IMG/VR virus record: IMGVR_UViG_3300044971_000698
Span: 1-42,431 of that record
DNA length: 42,431 nucleotides
Origin: a virus
Direction: 5' to 3' (one strand)
Shown: positions 3,564-42,105 of the stretch, piece by piece
Position numbering within the stretch: position 1 is the stretch's first letter
How the letters are laid out: each line of letters opens with the position of its first letter
Notes under the pieces: generated by a model
Seen by the model: the letters and a program-made list of their open reading frames with translations, nothing else
Told to the model about the DNA's origin: nothing
Database searches by the model: none
Translations under genes and position numbers: made by a program

Positions 3564-6500
3564 TACTTAGGCTCCTTTGGTGTTAAATACTTATCAACGA
3601 CAAGGTCTTGGCTTAAGAATCTTTCATATAAAGGCGCAAATCCAATAGGATCATCAGTCTTTAATTTCTTAACCATCAAGTCGTACATTATGCGGATGTC
3701 AATGTTTGACTTAGCATCAATAGACTTTGACTCTCTGCCCTGTAATTCTTCAGCAAACATTTTGCGAATATCAAAGTAAACTTCAACACTCTTAAATGTT
3801 GAAGAGTTCTTATTATCTTTACGATACTCTGGATCATTGAGGATCTTCGAGAAACCATAGATGACTCTATTAGTTTTAGATCCATCTGAATCTAGGTAGT
3901 CGTCATACCACGCAGTCTGGGAATAAGTTCCAGTCTTAGGGTTGACTATGTACTCACCCTTTGCATCCTTCTGACGTGAAAGACCTAATACAACAGTCTC
4001 CTTGATTACCTTAAGATCTTCTGCACCTTTTTGGGTAATTGATGATAACTTTCTATTAGTAAGTTCCTCATCAATAATATCCATTACTTGGTTGTATTTA
4101 ATCCATCCAAGTTCAGCCTCGCTCTTCTTCCGTGATTCTGCTGGACTCATAGGTCCAAGAAACTTTTCAGGAGAATCGGGTGAGATCTTTTTGTTGTATA
4201 GATACTCGTAGGCAGCGTCTGAGAACTTATAGCCTTCCTTTTCATTGACAACAAAACCGATAAGTTTTGGCTCAATGTTGTAAAGTTCACTGATAAGCCC
4301 ATCATACTTCTTGATGTTTTTAACAGCTGCAACTGTGTAGTCTACCTTGGCAGGGTTCTTAGAAGTGCTTGCTGTAAAGGCAAAGTACTCTGGGAAGTCC
4401 TTAAGGAACTTAGCATCTGCATCCATACCGTAGAGTTGCTTATACTCACGAGACTTCTGGATGTAGTACTGATAAGGGCTATCAAAGCGTGGAGCAAACG
4501 GTAGGATAAGGTTTGCTGCAATACGCAAGTTCCAGTAATCCTTCGTCTTGCTCATAATCTCTTTTGCGGTAGGCATTTTAGTACCATTGAGTTTGGCATT
4601 AGTTGCTTCTGTAGCAAAGATAAGAGCATATGACTTAGCAAACTGAGCGTCATCCAACTCTTTGTTTGCTGCAATAGCCTTCTGTGACCAAGCTGGGATA
4701 AAGTTAGATACGACATTCTTTGATGGACCATATGGCAATGCCCACTTAAAAGAATCTGCTAGTTCAGGCTTTTCTTTAACGATCTCAGAAATTGGAGCTG
4801 CAACATATGGACCTACCGGAAATAGATCACCAAAGATGTTTGGATTACCCTTATTGTAAAGGACATCCATACCACCCTGGAAGATAATATCCAAGGATTG
4901 CTTTGGAATACCTAGTTGAGTAAGCGAATCCATACCTGGAATACCACGCATACCACTTGGAACTGAAAGCCAAATTACATCACTACCGGAAGTCTGACCT
5001 TCTGGGACTGGATTACCGTCCTGATCTGTAACAAGACCTGCACGGTTCGGTGATTGCCAGACCATATAGCCACGATTGACAATAGCAGGGTTTGCTACAG
5101 ACATCTTAAGCCAAGTCTTGTAAGCGTTCTCTTGCGCTGAGAAGAATGGGCTAATAAACTTCATTGCTGCTGCAAGATTGCTTCGACGCTCAATGTTAAA
5201 TAGAATGCCCTTCATTTGACGCAGTGCTACCTTGTGGGAAGCAGCCATCACAGCCTCTTGATCTGCTGTTGTAAGTTTGCCACCCTTTAGGCCACCAACA
5301 ATGTCAATGCGACGACGTGCTTCTTGTCGGTAGAACTGGATGTACAGTGGGTTTCTAGCCCAAGCATCTTCAGGAAGTTGAGCAAGGAACTTAAAAGCCC
5401 CGTTGATAAGGGTTCTAATTTGCAACTTTGAAGTATTAGATACGGCCTCTTCAAGTACGTGACCGTGAATTGTAGGAAGAGTCGTTGGATCTTTGAACGC
5501 TCCGCGTAGGTCGTTTGCTGTAACCTCACGTATGCTTGTGCGTAGACCTGATGATTCTGGCAAATAGTTATCCAAGAACCGGCTGATACGTGTGACGTAT
5601 TCAGCTGAATCGTCAATAGCCAAACGCTTGCGTAGGTCACGACCAGCAGGTGAACCTGCAAGCCATCGAGTAATATCTTCTACGCTTTCACCTGTAACAA
5701 GTCGTTGTACAACTGCTGAGTTACCAAACTGCTGGCGTAGTGTTTGCGCCCACTGTTCAAAGTAACCAGGATCTGTTGGCTTTACAATACCGTAACCCTT
5801 AGATTGTAGAGCACGTCCGAACATATCAGAGTTGCTCTCTACCATACGCTGGAACGAGTTAGCAGATGATGCAATCGTCCGGAACATCTCACCTAGAGGA
5901 CCACCGAAAGCATCATATAGAACGTATTTGCTACCATCGCTGGCAGTAACTTCAAAGGAGCCAGTGCCAATACGCTTCTTTGGGTCAACTGTTCCTACTC
6001 GGTTAATCGTTTCTGTATAGTGATTGTATACAGCAAGTTTTTCTTCCTGAAGAAGTTTAAGTGTATTGATCTCACCCATTGCATCAAGATCATCTGGCTT
6101 AAGTGATAAGCGTGCTTCAGCTTCTGCTATCTTTGTCTTGATCTCGTTAAGTTCACGAGTAACCATTGTGGCTGACTGTTGAACATTCTTGATTGTCATA
6201 CCATCAAACTTAGGTAGGTAGCGATCAATAAGTCGAGCAGGCTCTTTTACTGTGTTATAGACAAAGTTTTTAACACCAGGACCTAGATGGCGTAGCGTTG
6301 TCATAGAACCGACTGATGCAGCGATACGAAGTTGAGAATCAATACCGTTACGGATTGTATAACCTAGGCGAAGCAGAACTGCTGCCTTAAATAAATCTTG
6401 GAAGAGATCTAACCTGTCAAGGGTAGTGTTTACGGTAGCGCCTTTAAGGGCGGAAAGAACGCTTGAGTTTTCACGAAGGAGGCGGTCTAATACCTCAAAG

Positions 6501-8685: not shown

Positions 8686-8899
8686 CTGTTCCCTCCTGTA
8701 ACTGTTCTAGGTCTGTGGTCATTTCTTCCCACGCTTGCATTGTTTTTGTCTTTTGGTTTGAATGATAAATACTAAGTTCAAATAATTCTGAAAAGAATGT
8801 TTCTAACACTTGCGATAAATTGTAAAGAGCACCTGTAAATATAACAAGTAGATCTGTTGGGCGTACAGGGCGTGGAACCCTATCGTTGTGATTCAGCAC
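8678..8899 (-). CDS. Hypothetical small late protein, about 73 aa
   Basis: Helical and charged, with a hydrophobic stretch near residues 15-40 and an acidic C-terminus. Two in-frame GTG starts exist, at 8908 and 8899. I chose 8899 because a GAAGG Shine-Dalgarno lies about 9 bases upstream of it but directly abuts the first. No family recognised. Its stop overlaps the next gene by 8 bases. Confidence 0.55.
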   Translation of the reverse strand: MLNHNDRVPRPVRPTDLLVIFTGALYNLSQVLETFFSELFELSIYHSNQKTKTMQAWEEMTTDLEQLQEGTDG

Positions 8900-8919
8900 C
8901 CTGTACACCCTTCAGTAAA

Positions 8920-11220: not shown

Positions 11221-13080
11221 TTAGATGAATGTTTTGTTTTGCTCTGCGATGAGTTCATCTATGTTGACGACTACTCGCTTGCCCATTTCTTTTCTGGACA
11301 AAAATGGATTCTTCATATGGTGGCTTGCATACTGACCATAGTTGAGCATCTCGCGTGCTCGGATCTCACAGAACCACAGGGCCATTACCAAGTCGGTCTT
11401 ACCCTTAGTAGTAGGTGTCCACGTAATCAACTGCTCGATTAGCGCCTTGACGTTTTCAGTCTGGTCACTAGGTAGGTGGATCAAATTATCGCGGTGGTGC
11501 TTACCATCGGACTGCTTAGTTCCAAAGAGTGTAGCCATTGATGCAACGCCGAAGCCTGCATCCCACTTATTAGAACCAGTATGGTGCTCTTTAAGAAGTA
11601 CACCTCTAGTAGCAAGGTGCTGACGGATTCCTTCATCTTGGGTAAGGAAGGCTTGGAAAGCGTTCTTCTCTACTACCCATTCAGAGGGACTATAAATGGA
11701 AGTCCAGTTAAAAATTAACTCGCGGATTTGCTGCGGAGACGGACCAGTGATCTTGATAGCATCAACAATATAACGTTTATTGGTACTTCGATCAATAGCA
11801 TAGCAGATCGCAGCAGTATCACCGACCATAGCAGGATCAAGACCACAGATAATACTAAAGCCAGAAAGATCTTTTGGATGGCCTGGATAACCTGGTTCAA
11901 GACGACCTGACTTTCTCATCCCGTCAATAGAACCTTTAACACAGACGGGATCAAAAGCTGCGTTCTCAGATATATCCTGTTGCTGGTAGACCAGCGCCCA
12001 GGTAGATGTATCCATCGCTTGGCGTTCGTTGTATAAGTTACGACCAGACCAACGTGGGTATAAACCTTCTTCGTTCTTGTCGGCTTCTTCTTGTCCATCA
12101 AATGGCATATCCGAATAAGGCCAAAGCGTAACCCACTTGTCAGGGTCCTCATCTGCTTCTAAAAGCGCCGGCATAGCCAAGTACTTCCAAGGAACTAGCC
12201 CACCAGGGTAGCGATCCTCAGAGCGTAGCTCGCGGTAGAGATCTACCGAGGCTACACGGGTACCAATAACGATCAACTTACCTGTAGGGTTCAAACGGGA
12301 TCGCACGTCTTGGGTCAACCAGCGGATCTGCTTCTCAAACTCATTAGCGTTCTTTAAGGTCACAGCGTCGTCTACGATAATCATATCTGCACGCTTACCG
12401 TAGATCTGACCACCGATACCGACGGCTTCGATGTTTGGGTCCTTTTCAGATGACTCACGAAGTTCATCACCAAAGGTGACACGGGTAGCCTGCCACGAAG
12501 CAGACTTAGAGTTAAACCCTACGCCAGCAGCATACGCAGTCTGTAACTCTTGGTACATTGGGTGCGTCAGACGTTGCTTGATGGCGTAGAGAAAGTCGGC
12601 AGCTAACTGCTGCGTTTGGGATACGATAAGAACTCTAAAGTTAGGATTCCTACATACCTGCCAGGTGACGTAGTCCACAGTGATCGTGATGGACTTGGCG
12701 TGGTTTGGCGGGATGTTAATAAGTACACGGTTTGCTGCCAAGCCTGGTTCAAACTTCATAGAGGGGTGTAACCACCCTGGTTCACGTCCTTCAATCACAT
12801 CTACGATGTTCTGCTGATGTGGGAAGGTACGGCTATGGAGGAACTGCTGGCGGAACTCTGGAAAGGTCATATCGTGGACATCGGATGAGGCAAAGGACTT
12901 ATCCTTCAAACCTAGCCGTGTCCGGTCAATCTTGTCTGCAAAGATCTTATCAGTGCGACGGTAATACTCGTAGGTCTTAATAGACTTACCTGCGCTGCCA
13001 CAGGCAGCTTCAATAGTCATACCTTCTGAGACACAACCTAGGATGATTCTCTTTGCTATGTCAGCCGAGTTGTCAGCCAT
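11221..13080 (-). CDS. terL: Terminase large subunit with N-terminal HTH-like segment
   Basis: 619 residues. The ATPase-nuclease motor that cuts concatemers and packs DNA through the portal. A Walker A-like PPNHAKS is at residues 124-130, Walker B MIIVDD at 233-238 and a coupling motif GTR at 273-275. The C-terminal RNase-H-like nuclease shows GLDPAMVGDTAA (D415), VVEKNAF (E471) and TDLVMALWF near 580. Residues 8-55 resemble the HTH of small terminases, so DNA recognition may be fused to the motor. No separate small-subunit gene was recognised, though the 112-residue gene upstream is a candidate. Confidence 0.92.
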   Translation of the reverse strand: MADNSADIAKRIILGCVSEGMTIEAACGSAGKSIKTYEYYRRTDKIFADKIDRTRLGLKDKSFASSDVHDMTFPEFRQQFLHSRTFPHQQNIVDVIEGREPGWLHPSMKFEPGLAANRVLINIPPNHAKSITITVDYVTWQVCRNPNFRVLIVSQTQQLAADFLYAIKQRLTHPMYQELQTAYAAGVGFNSKSASWQATRVTFGDELRESSEKDPNIEAVGIGGQIYGKRADMIIVDDAVTLKNANEFEKQIRWLTQDVRSRLNPTGKLIVIGTRVASVDLYRELRSEDRYPGGLVPWKYLAMPALLEADEDPDKWVTLWPYSDMPFDGQEEADKNEEGLYPRWSGRNLYNERQAMDTSTWALVYQQQDISENAAFDPVCVKGSIDGMRKSGRLEPGYPGHPKDLSGFSIICGLDPAMVGDTAAICYAIDRSTNKRYIVDAIKITGPSPQQIRELIFNWTSIYSPSEWVVEKNAFQAFLTQDEGIRQHLATRGVLLKEHHTGSNKWDAGFGVASMATLFGTKQSDGKHHRDNLIHLPSDQTENVKALIEQLITWTPTTKGKTDLVMALWFCEIRAREMLNYGQYASHHMKNPFLSRKEMGKRVVVNIDELIAEQNKTFI

Positions 13081-15670: not shown

Positions 15671-15686
15671 CACGCTCATAATCTAG

Positions 15687-15707
15687 GGCGCAGCATAGAT
15701 CTGCGCC
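15687..15707 (+). other. 7-bp GC hairpin upstream of leader 1
   Basis: GGCGCAG (15687-15693) pairs perfectly with CTGCGCC (15701-15707) across a 7-base loop, just after the membrane-protein stop. No T-run follows. It may shield the upstream mRNA end or act with the leader that follows. Confidence 0.45.
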
Positions 15708-15770
15708 GGCTATTGGTTATCTCTTGCCCTCTCTTGCGATCTCGGAGAGGGTAAGGGGGAGCAAATAGCT
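15708..15770 (+). promoter_or_regulatory. Structured mRNA leader, copy 1
   Basis: An outer stem pairs GGCTAT (15708-15713) with ATAGCT (15765-15770). An inner 13-bp stem pairs 15721-15733 with 15745-15757 around an 11-base loop. It ends 26 bases before the next start codon. Sequence and fold are shared with copy 2 at 16110-16174, and the inner stems show compensatory changes, so the RNA structure looks selected. Confidence 0.65.
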
Positions 15771-15796
15771 CTGAATGTATGAGAGGGAGAGAATCT

Positions 15797-15988
15797 ATGA
15801 GTATGAGTAACGGAGTAAAAAATCTGCGCTATTACCGGCAGCTAGACGGAGCAACCTTATTAGATAGCGATGACCGATATTATCGCCTAGATGATAAGGG
15901 TGAGAGAGTATACGGATACCGCACTCACTTTACCGGCTCTTACGTATGCTATAGCTGCGGTCACTTATGCGACTGCGGGGAAGAGTAA
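15797..15988 (+). CDS. Cys-rich microprotein, 63 aa
   Basis: C-terminal cluster CYSCGHLCDCGEE (about residues 49-61) is a probable zinc site. The N-terminal part is Tyr/Asp/Arg-rich. I chose the ATG at 15797, behind GAGAGGGAGAG; 15803 is an alternative. The stop overlaps the next ATG (TAATG). Confidence 0.6.
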   Translation: MSMSNGVKNLRYYRQLDGATLLDSDDRYYRLDDKGERVYGYRTHFTGSYVCYSCGHLCDCGEE

Positions 15989-16101
15989 TGCTCAAGGTGG
16001 ATAGTATCGGGCAAGAGTATTGCCTACCCTGCGGGGATAGGTTAGAGATAGAGGGCGTAATAGTAGAGCGTGAGGGCTATTGTATAGAGTGTAGGGTATA
16101 G
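15988..16101 (+). CDS. Minimal zinc-ribbon microprotein, 37 aa
   Basis: Two Cys pairs (CLPC near residue 12 and CIEC near residue 32) with about 16 residues between, the minimum for a single zinc ribbon. Its ATG overlaps the upstream stop. It is the smallest of the operon's zinc-knuckle proteins. No family can be assigned at this length. Confidence 0.55.
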   Translation: MLKVDSIGQEYCLPCGDRLEIEGVIVEREGYCIECRV

Positions 16102-16109
16102 TAAGGTAA

Positions 16110-16174
16110 GGCTATAGGTTATCTATCGCCTTCTCTTATCGGTAGTGAGAGAGGGCGGTAGAGGGCAGGTAGCC
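16110..16174 (+). promoter_or_regulatory. Structured mRNA leader, copy 2
   Basis: An outer stem pairs GGCTAT (16110-16115) with GTAGCC (16169-16174), with one G-U pair. An inner 15-bp stem pairs 16122-16136 with 16148-16162 around an 11-base loop. It ends 27 bases before the start at 16202, nearly the same spacing as copy 1. C-G/A-T and T-A/C-G swaps relative to copy 1 keep pairing. Confidence 0.65.
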
Positions 16175-16201
16175 CTAATAGATACGAAAGAGAGAGAGAA
16201 T

Positions 16202-16552
16202 ATGAACGCTATACACGAAAACTTCGTGAATGAGATCACTAGAAAGTGCGTAGATACTTACACGCTAGAAAATAACTATCGCGTAAAGGTATCTACCTAT
16301 TACGATAAGGTGAAGAAAGTGTATTGGAGTACGATTAGCGAGTGCGTAGTAGAGGCTAGCGGCACCGCCGGCTTCTACTTCGAGAGGCATACGATGTATA
16401 CCGACTTCAATCGTCTAGCCGGCAAGGTTGAAGCTCTCCGATATAACCCGGAGAATATGAAGAAGGCTCACGGCCTAGCCCTAGATAGTGTGCGCGGGCT
16501 GATAGATCAGCTACTAGAGGCCGGTAAAGAGAGAGAGAAGGCAAGCGCGTGA
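16202..16552 (+). CDS. Hypothetical protein, 116 aa
   Basis: Alpha/beta, with a Tyr-rich beta middle (about residues 20-60) and a helical charged C-terminus. No domain recognised. The ATG at 16202 follows a purine-rich GAAAGAGAGAGAG ribosome site and leader copy 2. A longer form from 16145 would run through the leader hairpin and is less likely. The stop overlaps a GTG start (GTGA). Confidence 0.6.
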   Translation: MNAIHENFVNEITRKCVDTYTLENNYRVKVSTYYDKVKKVYWSTISECVVEASGTAGFYFERHTMYTDFNRLAGKVEALRYNPENMKKAHGLALDSVRGLIDQLLEAGKEREKASA

Positions 16553-16695: not shown

Positions 16696-16770
16696 ATAGT
16701 GGCGTACTATCACACTTTACCTACGTATGGGGTAGAGTGCGGTAGTATCTTACTAAGAGGTAGTGAGATA
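16695..16770 (+). promoter_or_regulatory. Leader with three consecutive hairpins
   Basis: GATAGT/ACTATC (16695-16700 with 16706-16711, 6 bp), CACTTTACC/GGTAGAGTG (16713-16721 with 16731-16739, 9 bp with one G-U) and TATCTTACTA/TAGTGAGATA (16746-16755 with 16761-16770, 10 bp with one G-U). The last ends 22 bases before the ATG at 16793. It differs in sequence from the other two leaders but sits in an equivalent place. Confidence 0.5.
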
Positions 16771-16792
16771 GATAAGAGGGAGAGGGCAAGTA

Positions 16793-16927
16793 ATGAGAGA
16801 GTCTATTGAGAAAGAGGCAGAATTTATATTTGAGAAGATGAGAGAAAATATAGGCGATCCCTATTGGCAAGGTCGTCTTGATTCTCTTGCGTGGGTACTA
16901 AAAAATCTAGTGAGAGAGGGTAAGTAA
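16793..16927 (+). CDS. Hypothetical microprotein, 44 aa
   Basis: Acidic helical protein (MRESIEKEAEFIFEKMREN, then a Trp-containing amphipathic helix). A GAGAGGG ribosome site precedes the ATG; the stop overlaps the next ATG as TAATG. No family recognised. Confidence 0.55.
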   Translation: MRESIEKEAEFIFEKMRENIGDPYWQGRLDSLAWVLKNLVREGK

Positions 16928-17019
16928 TGACCTATAAAAAATTGCAAGAGCTAGACGATTACTTATATGAGCGCGAGCTTGTATGGAATTACCGTGTATA
17001 CGATAGAGGGAGAGAGTAA
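16927..17019 (+). CDS. Hypothetical microprotein, 30 aa
   Basis: The smallest frame kept here. It is supported by TAATG overlaps at both ends and a GAGAGGG ribosome site. The product is one charged, Tyr-rich helix. No function can be proposed. Confidence 0.42.
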   Translation: MTYKKLQELDDYLYERELVWNYRVYDRGRE

Positions 17020-18847: not shown

Positions 18848-19118
18848 AAACAAGGCACTTATCGTTAGTTACTTACGAGCACTCGGTTACGATCAGAAGC
18901 AGAGAAAGTGTGCCATCACCTTATGGACCCGTGAGAGCAGGCTTGACCACCTCGCCGATAACCCAAGATCAACGGCTTTCGGAATTGCTCAGCTCCTTAG
19001 AGAGCGTAGTAGAAAACCTGAACTACAAGTCCTTCACGCTATACGATATGTTGAACACCGCTATCGAGGAGATTTCTGCGGTGCTCTCCGGCACTCAGAC
19101 CGAAGAGGATGGTACTGA
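18699..19118 (+). CDS. Lytic transglycosylase-like protein with N-terminal membrane anchor
   Basis: 139 residues. Cleaves, by family resemblance, the glycan strands of peptidoglycan. A hydrophobic anchor or signal lies at residues 8-25. The catalytic-type segment WTRESRLDHLADNP (E79) is followed by STAFGIAQLL and a C-terminal YVEHRYRGDFCGAL...GWY, as in short phage SLT-type enzymes. A shorter start at 18831 would lose the anchor. Its TGA overlaps the methyltransferase ATG (TGATG), which supports this frame. It shares DNA with two other frames, 18551-18847 and 18844-19134. Placed in the early operon, away from the lysis genes. Confidence 0.7.
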   Translation: MNRWVRSGLILTAVLTSIWILTPIHHLRVEEKATKPAPVQTKATMEEKRENKALIVSYLRALGYDQKQRKCAITLWTRESRLDHLADNPRSTAFGIAQLLRERSRKPELQVLHAIRYVEHRYRGDFCGALRHSDRRGWY

Positions 19119-19134
19119 TGCTAACGGGAGTTAG
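18844..19134 (+). CDS. Overlapping-frame protein, 96 aa (possible)
   Basis: A GTG start overlaps the stop of the 98-residue gene by 4 bases and has a good GGAGGA 6 bases upstream: the standard coupling seen throughout this operon. The C-terminal half is a likely coiled-coil helix (LSELLSSLESVVENLNYK onward) with an acidic end; the N-terminal half is unstructured. It lies almost wholly over the transglycosylase in another frame. Either both are translated or one is a decoy; the transglycosylase has the better family evidence. Confidence 0.45.
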   Translation: MKTRHLSLVTYEHSVTIRSRESVPSPYGPVRAGLTTSPITQDQRLSELLSSLESVVENLNYKSFTLYDMLNTAIEEISAVLSGTQTEEDGTDANGS

Positions 19135-19744
19135 TTTATTTGCCGGTATCGGAGGCTTTGATCTAGCTATGCAACGCCAAGGAGTGAAGGTCGTAGCCTC
19201 AGTTGAGATAGATAAGAAGTGCCAGGAGGTATTGGCACACCGCTTTCCAGAGAGCAAGATATTTGATGATGTAACTACAGTAAAAGGAAGTGACCTAATT
19301 GCAGCAGGATTTATACCAAGCACAGGAATTATTACAGGAGGATTTCCCTGCCAAGATCTCTCAGTCGCTGGCAAAAGGGCTGGTCTTGCTGGCGCAAGAA
19401 GCGGGTTATTCTGGGAGATTGCAAGAATTGTGGACGAAACGCAAACAGAATACTTCGTCATCGAAAACGTCCCTGGTCTGCTATCCAGTAACAACGGCGC
19501 AGATTTTGGAGTCGTCATCGGGACGATGGCCGACCTCGGGTATTCTCTCGGATGGAGGGTGCTTGATGCTCAACACTTCGGAGTACCCCAGCGCCGGAAG
19601 CGTGTCTTCATCGTTGGCAGACGTGGTTCAGACTCAACCAGTCCAGCAGAAGTATTATTTAACAGTCAAGGCAGCAGAAGGAGTACTTCGCAGAAGCAAC
19701 AGGAACGGCAAGTTGCTGCCGGATCAACTACAGAAAGCATTTGA
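19118..19744 (+). CDS. Cytosine-C5 DNA methyltransferase, catalytic part
   Basis: 208 residues. Transfers a methyl group from SAM to cytosine C5, probably to protect phage DNA from host restriction. Motif I FAGIGGFDLA (about residue 8), motif IV GGFPCQDLSVAG with the catalytic Cys near 78, motif VI ENVPG (about 116) and motif VIII QRRKRVFIVG are all present. Motifs IX and X are missing and lie in the next frame, 19741-20148. I chose the ATG at 19118 because it overlaps the upstream stop and follows AGAGGA. The two-part plan resembles the natural split enzyme M.AquI. Confidence 0.85.
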   Translation: MLTGVSLFAGIGGFDLAMQRQGVKVVASVEIDKKCQEVLAHRFPESKIFDDVTTVKGSDLIAAGFIPSTGIITGGFPCQDLSVAGKRAGLAGARSGLFWEIARIVDETQTEYFVIENVPGLLSSNNGADFGVVIGTMADLGYSLGWRVLDAQHFGVPQRRKRVFIVGRRGSDSTSPAEVLFNSQGSRRSTSQKQQERQVAAGSTTESI

Positions 19745-19784
19745 AGATGTGGTACGTAAAGAGCAGGAGAGCACAACACAATGA
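19299..19784 (+). CDS. Nested protein in the +1 frame of the methyltransferase, 161 aa
   Basis: TTG start with AAGGAAG 8 bases upstream. The frame stays open for 486 bases across the whole methyltransferase core. The product is not random in look: a DFPAKIS segment opposite methyltransferase motif IV, WPTSGILSDGG and LMLNTSEYPS in the middle, and KYYLTVKAAEGVLRRSNRNGK near the C-terminus. I recall similar segments next to or over C5 methyltransferases in other phages, so both frames appear selected. Function unknown; a partner or modulator of the methylase is an inference. Confidence 0.6.
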   Translation: MQQDLYQAQELLQEDFPAKISQSLAKGLVLLAQEAGYSGRLQELWTKRKQNTSSSKTSLVCYPVTTAQILESSSGRWPTSGILSDGGCLMLNTSEYPSAGSVSSSLADVVQTQPVQQKYYLTVKAAEGVLRRSNRNGKLLPDQLQKAFEDVVRKEQESTTQ

Positions 19785-20148
19785 AGATCACGAAACTTGG
19801 ATCGAAGGTGGAGTGTGTCCCACGTTGAACGCATTTGATAATAACGCTGAAGTGAGAGCAACAGTTCTTATCTTTGAAGCTACACGAGTAGATGATACTC
19901 GTATCTATGATGGCTACTCTCCGACAGTAGCCACATATTGGGGAACCGGTGGTGCGCGAGTGCCTTATGTAATCCACCAGGAAGTCCCAGTTCGTAGACT
20001 TACACCTATCGAGTGTGAAAGATTACAAGGATTCCCTGATGACTGGACTGAGGGATGTTCTGATTCAACACGTTATCGCCAGATAGGAAACGCAGTTGCA
20101 GTACCAGTAGTGGAATGGATCATTCAAGGTATATCTGATACACTCTAA
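19741..20148 (+). CDS. Cytosine-C5 DNA methyltransferase, C-terminal (target recognition) part
   Basis: Up to 135 residues. Contains the segment before motif IX (GGVCPTLNAFDNN), motif IX RRLTPIECERLQGFPDDW and motif X RQIGNAVAVPVVEW, which complete the enzyme begun at 19118. TTG start at 19741 overlaps the first part's TGA; an ATG at 19747 is the alternative. It could be made as a separate beta subunit, as in M.AquI, or by -1 slippage between 19663 and 19741, where this frame is open. A one-base sequencing error is the third option. Confidence 0.8.
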   Translation: MKMWYVKSRRAQHNEDHETWIEGGVCPTLNAFDNNAEVRATVLIFEATRVDDTRIYDGYSPTVATYWGTGGARVPYVIHQEVPVRRLTPIECERLQGFPDDWTEGCSDSTRYRQIGNAVAVPVVEWIIQGISDTL

Positions 20149-20168
20149 GTGTTGCCTTCCGGCACAAC

Positions 20169-20205
20169 CTAACCCTCGCCGTTACCTCTTTCCGGCGGGG
20201 GTTAG
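20169..20205. terminator. Hairpin between convergent operons
   Basis: A 13-bp stem with one G-U pair joins 20169-20181 and 20193-20205 around an 11-base loop. It follows the methyltransferase end on the plus strand, with a T-containing tail (TGCTTTCT), and overlaps the stop of the minus-strand gene at 20202. It probably ends both convergent transcripts. Confidence 0.65.
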
Positions 20206-20795
20206 TGCTTTCTAATCCAGACTTGTTGGTTTTTTACAAGCAACTTATATTCTCCCTCGTGACGATCTAAGAACATATGGATACCCAACTTAGGTGCGTG
20301 TATATCAACGCCGTCAGGGTGAGTCCATTCATAGTCGTCAATAGCCATCATCCCACCGGAATTAAGTAGATCCCACGATAGTTCACAATCTAGTAGTGCA
20401 GAAGCTGAGGTGTGGTGTGCATCCACATAGATAAATTCAAAGCACTCACCGAGTGGGCGATCACAACCATACTGTGCGAGCAAGTATTCAGTAGTAGTGC
20501 AACGATGGATAGAGATTTTTTTACTATACTCACTTATCTTTTCAAGATAGGTATTGTAAACATCCTCAAAGTCCATCTCAGTCTGGACCGGTTCATTGGG
20601 CGCACCGCGCCACGTATCTACATCAGTAAGGTTAGATGATTGGGCAGTCAAGATATTCTTACACATCCATACACTGGCATCACCAGTGAAAGCACCCAGT
20701 TGTAGGAATCGCATACGATCCTCACCTTGCAGGGGTACCAAGAACTGCTCAAAGTTATGCTGAGCTATCTGCTTAAACCAATTAGGATATTCCAT
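20202..20795 (-). CDS. SAM-dependent methyltransferase (Methyltransf_24/CmcI-like)
   Basis: 197 residues. Class I Rossmann fold: motif I FLQLGAFTGDASVWM near residue 30, an acidic LTDVDTW after beta 2, and FEFIYVDAHHTSASALLDCELSW then GGMMAIDDYEW in the second half. Relatives methylate small molecules or sugars, so the substrate may be a virion or cell-surface glycan; it is not a DNA methylase by motif. The ATG at 20795 follows GGAGGGTAAT, better than an earlier frame start at 20858. Last gene of the leftward replication block. Confidence 0.75.
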   Translation of the reverse strand: MEYPNWFKQIAQHNFEQFLVPLQGEDRMRFLQLGAFTGDASVWMCKNILTAQSSNLTDVDTWRGAPNEPVQTEMDFEDVYNTYLEKISEYSKKISIHRCTTTEYLLAQYGCDRPLGECFEFIYVDAHHTSASALLDCELSWDLLNSGGMMAIDDYEWTHPDGVDIHAPKLGIHMFLDRHEGEYKLLVKNQQVWIRKH

Positions 20796-20970: not shown

Positions 20971-21350
20971 AACTTAACTGCTTCCTCGATTGCTAAGAAC
21001 CCTACCAACTTATCTACCTTACGCTTGTTAGCAAACTCTGAGGTGGCTGGCATACGTTGCATCCCCCACTCTGGCTCTGGTAGATCAAGAAGGTCAAAAG
21101 AATAGACCCCTTGCGGGGTCGAGTTTATATAGTAGGGAATCAGATCCCTCTCTGCCGACTGAGTGATGAGCTTGCGATACTTCATCTCCTCAATTAACAG
21201 TGTGGGGTAATGAGTATGGCGACACTTGAGTTCAATGTAGTGACCGGCCTTCTTGCTGATGCAGTCAAAGGAGTCATAGATTCCAGGGCTACGTTCAAGG
21301 TCTGGGTATAGACCCATCTTGAGAAAGTCAAAGAGTATTAGTTCATTCAT
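20967..21350 (-). CDS. Putative PD-(D/E)XK-type nuclease, 127 aa
   Basis: The arrangement DSFDCISKKAGHYIELKCR (D29, then E40-x-K42) is the core of the PD-(D/E)XK nuclease fold, here in a small single-domain protein. It could act in recombination or DNA degradation. It is smaller than most family members. Overlaps both neighbours by 4 bases. Alternative: a structure-specific or inactive relative. Confidence 0.6.
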   Translation of the reverse strand: MNELILFDFLKMGLYPDLERSPGIYDSFDCISKKAGHYIELKCRHTHYPTLLIEEMKYRKLITQSAERDLIPYYINSTPQGVYSFDLLDLPEPEWGMQRMPATSEFANKRKVDKLVGFLAIEEAVKL

Positions 21351-21979
21351 CGGAAGGGTGTATCTCCGCCCAGTTTATTCTGCAACCTACGCAGTGAGGT
21401 CATACATCTACGTTCTGCGGTGGATACTGCACACTGATAGATCTCTGCGATCTGTGCAAGGGTAAGTGATTCGTGGTAGCGATAGATCAGTACTTGCTTA
21501 TCGTAATCTTCTAACTTGGTAAAGCAATTCTTAATGTCAATCAGTGCAGCAAGTAAGTTGCCACCTTCTGCCGGACTAGATGATCCTTTAGGTTGACCAT
21601 CACGTAGCATCTCTTGCGCCTGCTCAAGTACTGTGCCATCTATCACTGATGCAATAACAAAAGGTAATAGCTGAGCCAAGGTAGCAGTCTCATAGTAGGC
21701 TTCATCTACTAGACTGTAACCAGAACGAGTAGCCTTTTCTTTACGAGCATAACGTTCAGCGTGACGTAGCATCTGCCACGCTACCTTAGATTCATTATGC
21801 TGACGTTTCTTAGGTTCTTCCTCACTCAACTCCTGAACAAGCCACGCCTTGCGTGTGATAGCCCACGAGTAACACTCTTGTAGCACATCCTCACGCTCAA
21901 CATAAGCCTTATACCTACGCCATATGGTGTATGCAACCGAAGGTGCAATCTCATAGACGGATGGGTGGAGATCAGTCAT
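21347..21979 (-). CDS. Sigma-70-like RNA polymerase sigma factor
   Basis: 210 residues. Region 2-like helix VEREDVLQECYSWAI near residue 28 and a C-terminal region 4 HTH: LEDYDKQVLIYRYHESLTLAQIA..., then CAVSTAERRCMTSLRRL. The middle linker is long and divergent. It likely directs host RNA polymerase to middle or late phage promoters. I chose the ATG at 21979 (MTDLHPS), which overlaps the upstream gene by 8 bases. Confidence 0.7.
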   Translation of the reverse strand: MTDLHPSVYEIAPSVAYTIWRRYKAYVEREDVLQECYSWAITRKAWLVQELSEEEPKKRQHNESKVAWQMLRHAERYARKEKATRSGYSLVDEAYYETATLAQLLPFVIASVIDGTVLEQAQEMLRDGQPKGSSSPAEGGNLLAALIDIKNCFTKLEDYDKQVLIYRYHESLTLAQIAEIYQCAVSTAERRCMTSLRRLQNKLGGDTPFR

Positions 21980-22355
21980 TAGGCCACTTGTCATCGAGTA
22001 CCATCATCGCAATAGCACTGTAGTTAAGTAGATCTAAGAATGAATCACGCAAGGACTCATTGGAAGGGTTGACTTCAGAGTCAACGAGGTTGTTAATGCG
22101 AGCTATCTTGTCCCACATACGTACACGCAGACCATTAAGTGCTCCACCTGGAGACTGAGCAATGTTCTTTGGACCGTAATCGTGGTGCTTACGAATGAGT
22201 AAGTTACCTGCTGTATCCATAATACGCCAGACATCTGAAATAAACTCAGGGTCTACCTTGTCGGTGTAGGTTGAATCAAGATAGTCTCGGTTGCCATATC
22301 CACTTCGAGGATCTGGAAGCCCATATGCTGCAAAGTCTGTAGAGTCATCTGCCAT
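21972..22355 (-). CDS. DUF1599/nucleotide-modification-associated protein
   Basis: 127 residues. The core KHHDYGPKNIAQ...GLRVRMWDKIARI...DSFLDLLNYSAIAMMVL matches the helical DUF1599/Nmad1-type family, which is distantly MazG-like and often sits in phage nucleotide-metabolism loci. Conserved acidic residues could bind Mg2+ and a nucleotide. The precise reaction is not known. Confidence 0.65.
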   Translation of the reverse strand: MADDSTDFAAYGLPDPRSGYGNRDYLDSTYTDKVDPEFISDVWRIMDTAGNLLIRKHHDYGPKNIAQSPGGALNGLRVRMWDKIARINNLVDSEVNPSNESLRDSFLDLLNYSAIAMMVLDDKWPND

Positions 22356-23629: not shown

Positions 23630-23982
23630 TAGTTTCTCTCCTTTAACCATTGTGATAGGTCCTGTATGACCCACGACTTTTCTATACCGGAGTTGCGACG
23701 CTTAACTATGACGTAATGCAGTGGCACTTCCCCAATACCACGAGCCTTAGCATAATTAAGCGCCTCAACTTCGGCTTCGGCCCAGAACTCTGGTAAGGAC
23801 AGGGCCTTTCTATTCTTGAGTTCTAGTATGTAAGTCTTTCCCGCGACCACGCACACTAGATCTCCTTCATCCTTACTGCCAGCCTTGGTTAATCTTTCTG
23901 CAAGAACACCAGGGATTGACCGTAAGAATTTCATTACATCAGTCTCGAACTGAGCACCTTTGCGCCCGTTAGGGTTTGCCAT
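23629..23982 (-). CDS. PD-(D/E)XK nuclease (VRR-NUC/Holliday-resolvase-like)
   Basis: 117 residues. RKGAQFETDVMKFLRS helix with an acidic residue, then DEGDLVC (D41) and YILELKNRK (E54-x-K56): the standard nuclease triad in a single domain of the archaeal-Hjc/VRR-NUC kind. It could resolve branched replication or packaging intermediates. I chose the ATG at 23982 (MANPNGRKG), inside the end of the previous gene. Confidence 0.72.
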   Translation of the reverse strand: MANPNGRKGAQFETDVMKFLRSIPGVLAERLTKAGSKDEGDLVCVVAGKTYILELKNRKALSLPEFWAEAEVEALNYAKARGIGEVPLHYVIVKRRNSGIEKSWVIQDLSQWLKERN

Positions 23983-24136: not shown

Positions 24137-24977
24137 TGTAAGCTCCTCCATAACCATAACGTTGATCCTTGGCGAACATACTACCCCAGACCGGATCATC
24201 TGTGATCTGACAAGCTGCATAGTTCACGTAAAGGTTTGCATACCGTGAAGCGTCTGCTGTGTGTGGCCCAAAGCGGTTCTTCACGGCAGCAACCTTTAAG
24301 ATCGCTTGGTTCGGATCGTACCCAAGCGTGAGTATGAGGCTGGGCAACTGGCTAACCTTACCGTGTATAGCGCGACGTGCTGGTGGGTTAGTAGGATTAC
24401 CGTACTCCGATTGTTCTGACACGTGGTGTAATACCAAGACACAAGCCTCAGTCTTACGAGCCATATCGTGTAGTTCCATCATAATTGCACGCAGACCTGC
24501 CCATTCATTATCAGTTTCTGCTGCAACGTTCATTAAATTATCTATGACAATTAACTCTGGAGCTATGCCATAGAGTTCCACATAAGCCTTGATCTCTAGT
24601 TCAATATCATCTAGGGATGGGCTTGAATCGAATACCCACTTGATGTGACCTAAGTTCACAAAGTGGTTATCGTAATGGTGTGTGTTTTGTGCAAGGTTAG
24701 ACTCAACAGATAACTGTTGGTGTCCTGATAGGTGAGAGGCAGCTCTCATCATCACAGTAGTAGTGTCTGTATCTGCTGAAAAGAATAAAGTAGGAACTTT
24801 CGACTTGATCGCATAGACCAAAGCGAACATAGATTTACCGGCGTTAGGTGCTGCTGCAACCATACAGACTTGCCCACGTCGGAACTTGATCTGCTCACTG
24901 GCTAGTGGCTTCCACACGTCCGGTAGTGGTGTTGCTTTGGTAAGCACCCCACCCCAAGCACGTGATAGATCAAGCAC
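24117..24977 (-). CDS. RecA-fold ATPase, DnaB-like replicative helicase
   Basis: 286 residues. Walker A AAAPNAGKS at 41-49, a catalytic-Glu equivalent region SADTDTTTVMMR near 68-78, Walker B ELIVIDN at 141-147, and VLVLHH with a downstream RAIHGKVSQLPSLIL. The layout is that of DnaB C-terminal or RepA/AAA_25 helicases without an N-terminal primase-binding domain. It probably unwinds DNA at the fork with the split primase. The start overlaps the WhiB gene by 8 bases. Confidence 0.8.
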   Translation of the reverse strand: MLDLSRAWGGVLTKATPLPDVWKPLASEQIKFRRGQVCMVAAAPNAGKSMFALVYAIKSKVPTLFFSADTDTTTVMMRAASHLSGHQQLSVESNLAQNTHHYDNHFVNLGHIKWVFDSSPSLDDIELEIKAYVELYGIAPELIVIDNLMNVAAETDNEWAGLRAIMMELHDMARKTEACVLVLHHVSEQSEYGNPTNPPARRAIHGKVSQLPSLILTLGYDPNQAILKVAAVKNRFGPHTADASRYANLYVNYAACQITDDPVWGSMFAKDQRYGYGGAYNVEAAN

Positions 24978-25236
24978 TCTTCTCCTCCTTCAATGTAATT
25001 CTTCTCTGCCTACGAATAACCCTTCGATTACTCTCAGTCAATCCACCCCAGATACCGAAGCCTTCGTTCTGTATTCCCCACTCAGCACATTCTGCTTGGT
25101 GAGTACACTGCCTACAGATTGATTGAGCCATAAGCATTTCGGTACTGTTGCTAATCCCGCCTTCCCTTTCAGGAAACCAGAAGTCGCCCCCCACACTTGC
25201 ACACAATGGAGCCTCGTACTTAGCAGGCTCTCTCAT
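24970..25236 (-). CDS. WhiB-family transcription factor
   Basis: 88 residues. Four Cys (C12, C41, C44, C50) are spaced to hold a [4Fe-4S] cluster, followed by the GIWGG turn (61-65) and a basic DNA-binding tail (RRVIRRQRR). WhiB proteins bind the actinobacterial sigma factor and are confined to Actinomycetota and their phages, so this fixes the host phylum. Phage copies, such as that of mycobacteriophage TM4, can down-regulate host WhiB and block superinfection. Confidence 0.93.
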   Translation of the reverse strand: MREPAKYEAPLCASVGGDFWFPEREGGISNSTEMLMAQSICRQCTHQAECAEWGIQNEGFGIWGGLTESNRRVIRRQRRITLKEEKSA

Positions 25237-41163: not shown

Positions 41164-42105
41164 TTAGTTAATTGATGCTGCTGATTCAATACGATAAAGA
41201 GCTGCTTGACGAAGTAGAGAGAAGCCGCCCATATAGTACCAACCGATTGTACGGAAGCGACGGAGCGTATCAATCTCTGGTCCAATGATGGTAGAGATGT
41301 CTTGACCCTGTGCTTCTGCAAGTGCTTCACGACCAGCGATAACAGCCTTGTAGACGTTAACTGCTGGTGACTGTGTGTTTGCAGCGAATGGGATACGTGG
41401 TGTTTCCACTACGAATGCACCTTCGATTACGCCGACTGCACCAGCCACGAATGGTGTGCGATCTACGTACTGTGTCAAAGCCTGGAATCCGCCGGTGCCT
41501 GATTCAGCACGGAGGTCAGCTGCCTGACGTGGGTGTAGGTATGCTGCATACAAATCATTGATACGTGGCACTGCCTTGTTTGTGCGGAGCTGTGTGACAG
41601 CCTCACGGATAGCAGCTACTGACATAACGTCTGTTGCTGTGATTCCGTTTGTTGTTGATGCTGTTGAAGTTCCTGCGTAGATGACGTTTGAGCCACCTGT
41701 GAGAGTTGTTGCAACTACAGAGTCAATCGAATCTGCTGCGTTGTAAGCGATGATGTCAGCAAGTGCTGAGTCAACATCGTTGAACGAAGTAAGGTTCAAC
41801 TTCTTTGTTGTTGTTACGGCTGATCCGTACTCTTGAAGAGTAACGGTAACCTGGTTAGGGTTGCCGAGAGCGATTGATGAAACATCTGACTCTTCTGTGA
41901 GAGTTGATGTTGCTTGTGCTAGGTCAGAGTAGATTGAGAATACTACTGATGATCCTGGCATTGCTTGCTGTACTGGCTTAACATCTGCAAGACCGCGCAT
42001 AACAGGGATGCTACGAAGAGCCATACGAACATATTGATCGTATGCTGTCTGTACGAGTGCAGTAATGTCAGCTGAACCAGTGATGGAACCGCCTGGTAGT
42101 GCCAT
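41164..42105 (-). CDS. Major capsid protein (N4-gp56-type)
   Basis: 313 residues. It builds the icosahedral shell. The N-terminus MALPGGSITGSADITALVQTA, the VKPVQQAMPGSSVVFSIYSD region near 45, TLQEYGSAVTTTKKLNLT near 90, and a long C-terminal domain with IIGPEIDTLRRFRTIGWYYMGG match the N4-gp56 major-capsid family of HK97 fold. The scaffold gene lies just upstream. The gene is cut by the left window edge (copy at 1-685) but complete here. Confidence 0.88.
   Translation of the reverse strand: MALPGGSITGSADITALVQTAYDQYVRMALRSIPVMRGLADVKPVQQAMPGSSVVFSIYSDLAQATSTLTEESDVSSIALGNPNQVTVTLQEYGSAVTTTKKLNLTSFNDVDSALADIIAYNAADSIDSVVATTLTGGSNVIYAGTSTASTTNGITATDVMSVAAIREAVTQLRTNKAVPRINDLYAAYLHPRQAADLRAESGTGGFQALTQYVDRTPFVAGAVGVIEGAFVVETPRIPFAANTQSPAVNVYKAVIAGREALAEAQGQDISTIIGPEIDTLRRFRTIGWYYMGGFSLLRQAALYRIESAASIN

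Follow-up and report, generated by a model that had tools for sequence, protein, structure and literature searches.

The virus record IMGVR_UViG_3300044971_000698, whose full length of 42,431 bases is referred to here as the window, is that of a tailed actinophage. Its minus strand encodes the large terminase (11221-13080), the major capsid protein (41164-42105), a WhiB-like protein (24970-25236), WhiB being an actinophage marker, and a sigma-70 region 4 protein (21347-21994) that is the phage's own sigma factor. The nearest named relative by large terminase (TerL) is the Planktophila phage LanE43-AprF5 (F5, OX376641) with 46.6% identity, followed by Streptomyces phages of the Beephvirinae as the next named protein relatives (43% for the terminase). 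Because these are its nearest named relatives, the window phage likely infects a member of the Nanopelagicales or a similar actinobacterium. F5 itself was isolated on 'Ca. Planktophila' LanE-43 (PMC10202952). No terminase relative was found in GTDB genomes, so that the terminase search gave no provirus or host link, and the DNA between 14000 and 18000 showed no similarity to any of 50,697 phage records.

A rightward operon of small genes, divergent from the terminase, extends from about 13.5 to 20.1 kb. Most neighbouring genes in this operon abut or overlap, and the long gaps, of 125, 100 and 98 nt from stop codon to start, are sites of RNA hairpins. The first gap (15672-15796, +) contains hairpin 1 (15708-15770, +) together with a Shine-Dalgarno purine run, and is followed by an open reading frame (15797-15988, +) for a cysteine-containing protein of 63 aa that has no assigned function and relatives in 12 contigs. 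In the second gap (16102-16201, +), hairpin 2 (16110-16174, +) begins 8 nt past the stop codon and precedes an open reading frame for a 116-aa protein (16202-16552, +), also with no assigned function, whose relatives are present in 9 contigs and for which a Pfam search returned no match. The third gap (16696-16793, +) holds hairpin 3 (16697-16755, +), which begins 1 nt past the stop codon and lies 5' of a 44-aa open reading frame (16794-16928, +) whose start, with a purine-rich Shine-Dalgarno sequence, was located by script. All three hairpins are thereby placed between a stop codon and the following Shine-Dalgarno sequence, and they end 26-38 nt 5' of the next start codon, which leaves just enough space for the Shine-Dalgarno sequence. 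A C5 DNA methyltransferase was also observed on the same strand over two overlapping open reading frames (19109-19744 and 19741-20148, +), the N-terminal part being recognized by Pfam and the C-terminal part by PHROGs; this could be a frameshift, a true split gene or an assembly error.

Hairpin 1 is composed of a 7-bp outer stem, mismatches, a 15-bp upper stem and a 9-nt loop, with a minimum free energy (MFE) of -34 kcal/mol (z -3.2). Hairpin 2 is built of a 6-bp outer stem, a 2x2 loop, 3 bp, a 1x1 mismatch, an 18-bp upper stem and a 5-nt loop, and reaches -40 kcal/mol (z -6.3). For each of them, none of 200 shuffles folded equally well. Both are of the type called A below, and hairpin 3, which differs from them in sequence, is of type B, the order in the window being A - A - B. 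Each of the three forms in the sense RNA a helix of about 25-29 layers, with mismatches or wobbles kept in its lower third.

The first-pass annotation had described hairpins 1 and 2 as two homologous RNA leaders ending 26 and 27 bases before a start codon. Sequence checks and folds confirmed their positions and distances (ATG at 15797 and 16202), and the two copies, aligned with their flanks over 114 columns, share a mean column identity of 79%. The two pair swaps that it had pointed out, C15723-G15755 to A16125-T16159 and T15725-A15753 to C16127-G16157, are right by sequence and by fold. On the contrary, the 11-base loop it had drawn corresponds to the apical loops of 9 and 5 nt given above, and its 6-bp outer stem applies to the second copy but is one of 7 bp in the first. 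Both hairpins are real, but the third one had been overlooked, and the term leader is slightly misleading for elements that are intercistronic hairpins within an operon. Finally, covariation between two copies is in itself weak evidence, and it had to hold up in relatives, which it did.

These relatives were gathered as 101 viral loci by protein-guided scans with the two downstream genes and the terminase, and a pattern scan added 21. Six of these 21 type A pattern matches, in L106, L107, L108, L113, L115 and L122, proved to be chance hits in unrelated contigs without the family fold and were dropped. A strict hairpin scan of the loci identified recurring hairpin types, namely type A with the motif GGCTATAGGTTATCT...GGGCAGATAGCC, type B with TAGTGGCGTACTATC...GGTAGTATCTTACTA, type B' with GCGTAC...GTCTGCA, and further types C and D. 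Genomes frequently carry three of these hairpins, arranged as B' - A - B with spacings of about 400-700 nt (L011, L017 and L103 are examples). When types A and B' were aligned separately, RNAalifold returned one common layout with an outer stem of 4-6 bp, a 2x2 internal loop, 3 bp, a 1x1 mismatch, an upper stem of about 15-16 bp and a loop, while type B presents a 2x2 loop and then an uninterrupted helix. The 1x1 and 2x2 interruptions are conserved across the family alignments, as is an invariant G-U. In alignment A4, the invariant mid-stem comprises G7 C8 G9 A11 and U44 C45 U46 G47 A49 (first-row positions), and strongly conserved mid-stem letters were found in type B' (GCGUA/UCUGCA) and in type A (GGUUAUC).

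Covariance models R1 and R2 were derived from the type A and B' alignments, and their search of related viral contigs recovered, after removal of identical hairpins, 83 distinct hairpins. R1, built without any window sequence, matches hairpin 3 at 16696-16756 with an E-value of 1.7e-7. R2 gives 64.1 bits to hairpin 1 and 86.7 bits to hairpin 2, both of which are in its training set. In alignment A7 (type B, 43 distinct rows), two-sided changes with pairing kept were observed in 17 of the 22 pairs, and in alignment A8 (type A, 29 distinct rows) in 21 of the 25. Paired cells amount to 94.7% in A7 and 96.8% in A8, and to at most 48.5% and 60.6%, respectively, once the partners are slid by 1-3 columns; none of the shuffles attains the observed scores. 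A7 and A8 are model alignments fitted to the structure and hence biased toward it, and MAFFT alignments, which are not structure-fitted, agree with them (two-sided changes in 14/22 and 8/25 pairs). The sense/antisense asymmetry described below and the slid partners served as controls for covariation in place of a phylogeny-aware test. The covariation claimed for the two copies therefore persists in 43 and 29 distinct sequences from relatives. Among the 4227 Rfam families, none matched the window at the gathering threshold, and ARAGORN found no tRNA or tmRNA. Sub-threshold matches to mir-320 (E 0.72 and 0.92) were set aside as chance-level matches to a long hairpin. Altogether, it is practically certain that the RNA structure is real, with a fold that is under selection, and that the hairpins form an RNA family outside Rfam.

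Other hairpins were noticed in the course of the scans. In L015, two strong hairpins stand in tandem before one gene (4980-5036 and the next ~60 nt), where a single one is usual. A strong hairpin also lies where two genes of the leftward operon of the window meet (8854-8915, -) and is possibly another processing site; a diverged version that retains the GTACAGGG/CCCTGTAC stem was seen at 3764-3825 of L008. In parallel, a 33-bp hairpin was observed within the gene for a RusA-like resolvase (window 23691-23770, -), and its ends, GTTGAGGCGCTTAA.../...TTAAGCGTCGCAAC, recur in L002, L007, L010, L055 and L094. Near position 6642 of L084, on the reverse strand and close to the start of the small-gene operon, a GGGTTCGATACCC stretch resembles a tRNA T-arm and is possibly a tRNA remnant or an attachment site.

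An inverted repeat can act as DNA as well as RNA, and start-preceding inverted repeats are known in actinophages, where they are taken as DNA signals (PMC3203893, PMC7302621). The present elements could accordingly be DNA-level palindromes without any RNA role, such as operators, recombination sites or start-associated inverted repeats of the ESAS kind. In the window, the sense strand folds more stably than the antisense strand for hairpin 1 (-33.5 versus -19.3 kcal/mol), hairpin 2 (-39.8 versus -22.8) and hairpin 3 (-28.9 versus -17.7). The same was found for all 83 hairpins, with a mean difference of 13.3 kcal/mol; the better model-scoring strand had been retained for each, and this strand is the gene strand in all 83. 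Their helices contain 387 G-U pairs and only 20 opposed A-C cells. Since such an asymmetry has no reason in DNA, these two results argue for selection on RNA rather than on a DNA palindrome, a reading that they mainly refute and that is now hardly tenable.

The closest described actinophage feature is that of the Extended Start Associated Sequences (ESAS) in Cluster K mycobacteriophages. In these inverted repeats next to starts, departures in one arm are not compensated in the other and so give no support for pairing, and their authors favour DNA-binding sites (PMC3203893). The hairpins share with these, with the ESAS of Cluster EF and with the 18-bp inverted repeats of Cluster EG in Microbacterium phages, which are for the most part inverted repeats too, a multi-copy occurrence in gaps that precede starts (PMC3203893, PMC7302621). 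Unlike in Cluster K, the arms compensate strongly and the signal is confined to the sense RNA, and the present family is the opposite case. In addition, the purine runs of the three gaps do not match the 13-bp Cluster K SAS, GGGATAGGAGCCC (consensus from PMC3203893).

A test free of strand choice was made on 37 loci selected by the terminase only, in which strict intergenic hairpins followed by a Shine-Dalgarno sequence and a start were sought over 3.5 kb of the operon. The sense strand yielded 39 hairpins, in 25 of the 37 loci, and the antisense strand of the same DNA yielded none under the strict rule. Likewise, the rule gave no hairpin in 3.5-kb stretches of terminase/late block, for which 22 of the loci were long enough. 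The remaining 12 of the 37 loci have no strict-rule hairpin within 3.5 kb, and the feature is not universal; L041, L049, L063 and L093, negative by the strict rule, are among those with model or looser matches. The proposal of a selected RNA structure is thus strongly supported by covariation, by the sense-strand asymmetry and by independent, terminase-chosen loci.

The placement of the hairpins relative to the genes is also regular across the family. A start codon with a purine-rich Shine-Dalgarno sequence lies 21-65 nt downstream of every one of the 83 hairpins (median 29, mostly 21-40 nt), and the distance to the upstream stop codon usually ranges from a few to a few tens of nt. The median probability that the Shine-Dalgarno sequence is unpaired is 0.74, with values below 0.5 in 9 of the 83. 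Stable hairpins past stop codons may suggest attenuators or transcription terminators inside the operon, and other forms of hairpin-based intrinsic termination have been proposed in bacteria (PMC8355165). This is very unlikely to be their role, as none of the 83 hairpins is followed by the U-run expected after the stem of an intrinsic terminator (T makes up at most 3 of 8 positions), the scan list shows neither promoter-like nor terminator-like matches at the window hairpins, and the 26-38 nt that separate these from their start codons are too few for a new promoter. A better terminator candidate, GGCACAACCTAACCCTCGCCG...CGGCGGGGGTTAGTGCTTTC, is present at the convergent operon junction (20161-20209). 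This terminator-like hairpin (+) ends in GTTAGTGCTTTC, and similar elements were seen in many relatives (for example L002, L017 and L029). Terminators and DNA signals have therefore both been tested and largely excluded. A dedicated sRNA gene, which the first-pass annotation had listed beside cis-regulators and RNase sites, is not indicated either, since a promoter- or terminator-like match is lacking and hairpins 2 and 3 start 8 and 1 nt after a stop codon; among these suggestions, intercistronic RNase III sites fit best.

We therefore propose, with a probability of roughly one half, that the three hairpins mark the places between cistrons at which a polycistronic mRNA of small genes is processed, and that they are most likely substrates of the host RNase III. 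The enzyme makes little sequence demand on a double helix, and internal loops steer its cut. Selection in the family acts on a helix of about two and a half turns, in which the interruptions are retained and the upper part is free in sequence. Host RNase III would bind this roughly two-turn helix and cut it in or close to the conserved internal loop or mismatch, dividing the operon transcript into units. The mRNA on the upstream side would thereby end at a fixed 3' position, that on the downstream side would begin shortly before its Shine-Dalgarno sequence, and each processed unit could then be translated and degraded at its own rate. Upper-stem letters would be free to vary because RNase III reads the double helix more than its sequence, and the mismatches would be retained because they set the position of the cut and the number of strands cut.

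The best-described relatives of such an arrangement are the RNase III sites of phage T7 (R1.1 and others; Dunn and Studier), which share the same anatomy, with an interrupted helix between the cistrons of a small-gene operon on the sense strand. R1.1, from between genes 1.0 and 1.1, is an RNA of 60 nt that contains a 4/5 internal loop (PMC6121014). When the T7 gaps were put through the same scan, sense-stronger hairpins of 9-25 bp were found before genes 0.3, 0.5, 1, 1.1 and 1.3 and none before gene 0.7; with five of six gaps positive, T7 is a fair but imperfect yardstick, the negative gap counting against it. Unlike the T7 sites, the hairpins belong to phages of another host phylum, show no known sequence relation to them and are cleaved only putatively; their upper stems are stronger, and their interruptions are symmetric (2x2 and 1x1) instead of a 4/5 loop. 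Several features that characterize T7-type sites are found here, namely an mRNA-strand intercistronic hairpin of about 20 bp or more, a helix interruption at a kept position, and an RNase III encoded by the host, the latter for Nanopelagicales, to which the host of the window phage probably belongs, judging from the relatives of the phage. Cleavage of a T7-type site by RNase III leaves 2-nt 3' overhangs or consists of a single cut in the internal loop. Each of the six Nanopelagicales genomes that were searched has a gene for RNase III, and Planktophila LanE-43 is one of them.

Cellular precedents exist as well. The RNase III of Streptomyces cleaves a hairpin from an intergenic region at its internal loop, and the rpsO-pnp intergenic hairpin is a substrate of the enzyme in both S. 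coelicolor and E. coli. Like the phage elements, it is a long hairpin with one or more internal loops that starts past a stop codon and precedes another gene. In the rpsO-pnp gaps of all six Nanopelagicales examined (L150-L155, freshwater), we observed a long hairpin in which the 1x1 mismatches are conserved, the upper stem varies freely and the core, GGUAGUGGUUUC / GUGAACUUCGAUC, is invariant. Unlike the phage hairpins, this is a cellular single-copy site with a different mid-stem sequence, and its core was not found in the phage loci. The structure, the strand, the placement, the conservation and the presence of the enzyme in the likely hosts, together with these precedents, are the reasons why RNase III-type processing is favoured.

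Several observations count against RNase III. The mid-stem is more conserved than a sequence-blind nuclease needs, which could mean that a specific RNA-binding protein is involved, the gaps of phage F5 hold weak hairpins only, and there are the 12 negative loci mentioned above. The main rival, although an unlikely one, is that the hairpins stay uncut and serve as stability or insulation elements, which would block exonucleases (PNPase from the 3' side, RNase J from the 5' side) and prevent read-through or the passage of re-initiating ribosomes, each cistron then decaying and being translated independently of its neighbours. Their position right after stops and mostly 21-40 nt before starts, their high stability and the mostly unpaired Shine-Dalgarno sequences are all in line with this role, and the variable upper stems match the need for a stem of no particular sequence. 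Pure selection for stability should mend mismatches and G-U pairs, yet the 1x1, the 2x2 and the invariant G-U persist.

The conserved letters lead to another explanation, in which the internal-loop motif is bound by one particular protein of phage or host, or by RNA polymerase itself as in put-like processive antitermination, so as to control downstream transcription or translation. A single protein or polymerase would then read a shared hairpin before each gene block and set timing or stoichiometry. The put RNA of phage HK022, which mediates processive antitermination, acts near promoters and consists of two hairpins in one or two copies. It resembles the present family as a cis-acting structured phage RNA of early operons, and differs from it in that single hairpins are found here, three per operon and between genes. 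Invariant mid-stem letters within otherwise freely varying helices, several copies in one operon of the same genome and the possession by the phage of its own sigma factor speak for such a recognition site. However, the motif differs among types A, B, B', C and D, and the Streptomyces relatives carry other motifs; moreover, the elements lie between genes and not near a promoter, with no promoter-like match at the hairpins, and no phage RNA-binding candidate was found. We thus regard recognition by a dedicated factor as rather doubtful. If it were true, the mid-stem motif would define a post-transcriptional regulon across a large group of actinophages.

Comparable hairpins were found in cultured phages. 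Of 54 small-gene gaps of at least 55 nt tested in six Streptomyces phages, 46 form their stronger best hairpin in the sense strand and 7 in the antisense strand, with a mean sense advantage of 7.6 kcal/mol and 127 G-U pairs for 21 A-C cells. Gaps that look homologous keep their flanks and exchange their stems, as illustrated by Manuel, a phage isolated on S. lividans, with GCGAGGGTTGCGCTGGGCC...GGCCCAGCGTTTCCTGCC and by Immanuel3 with GCGAGTATGATCCTCAGCC...GGCTGAGGGTCGTATGCC. Models R1 and R2 gave no match in Manuel or F5, and the link to these phages is therefore one of anatomy and not of proven homology. Most gaps of the small-gene operons of L124, L126, L127, L147, L148 and L149 (Streptomyces Beephvirinae and relatives) hold hairpins, one example of their make-up being GGATGGTGC-stem-GCTCCGTCT with a U-U mismatch and exchanged upper stems, and a second small hairpin often follows, before AAGGGGAGAG.

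Full-text searches of the open-licence literature brought up no description of such hairpins for these phages. The family described here is an unlisted RNA structure family of phages that probably infect abundant freshwater actinobacteria, and it suggests that mRNA processing in the style of T7 operates in actinophages too. Comparable hairpins are present in cultured Streptomyces phages, and RNase III mutants exist for the host genus. In addition, the family is a natural experiment in which letters turn over while the fold and its mismatches persist, so that the recognition rules of actinobacterial RNase III may be readable from evolution.
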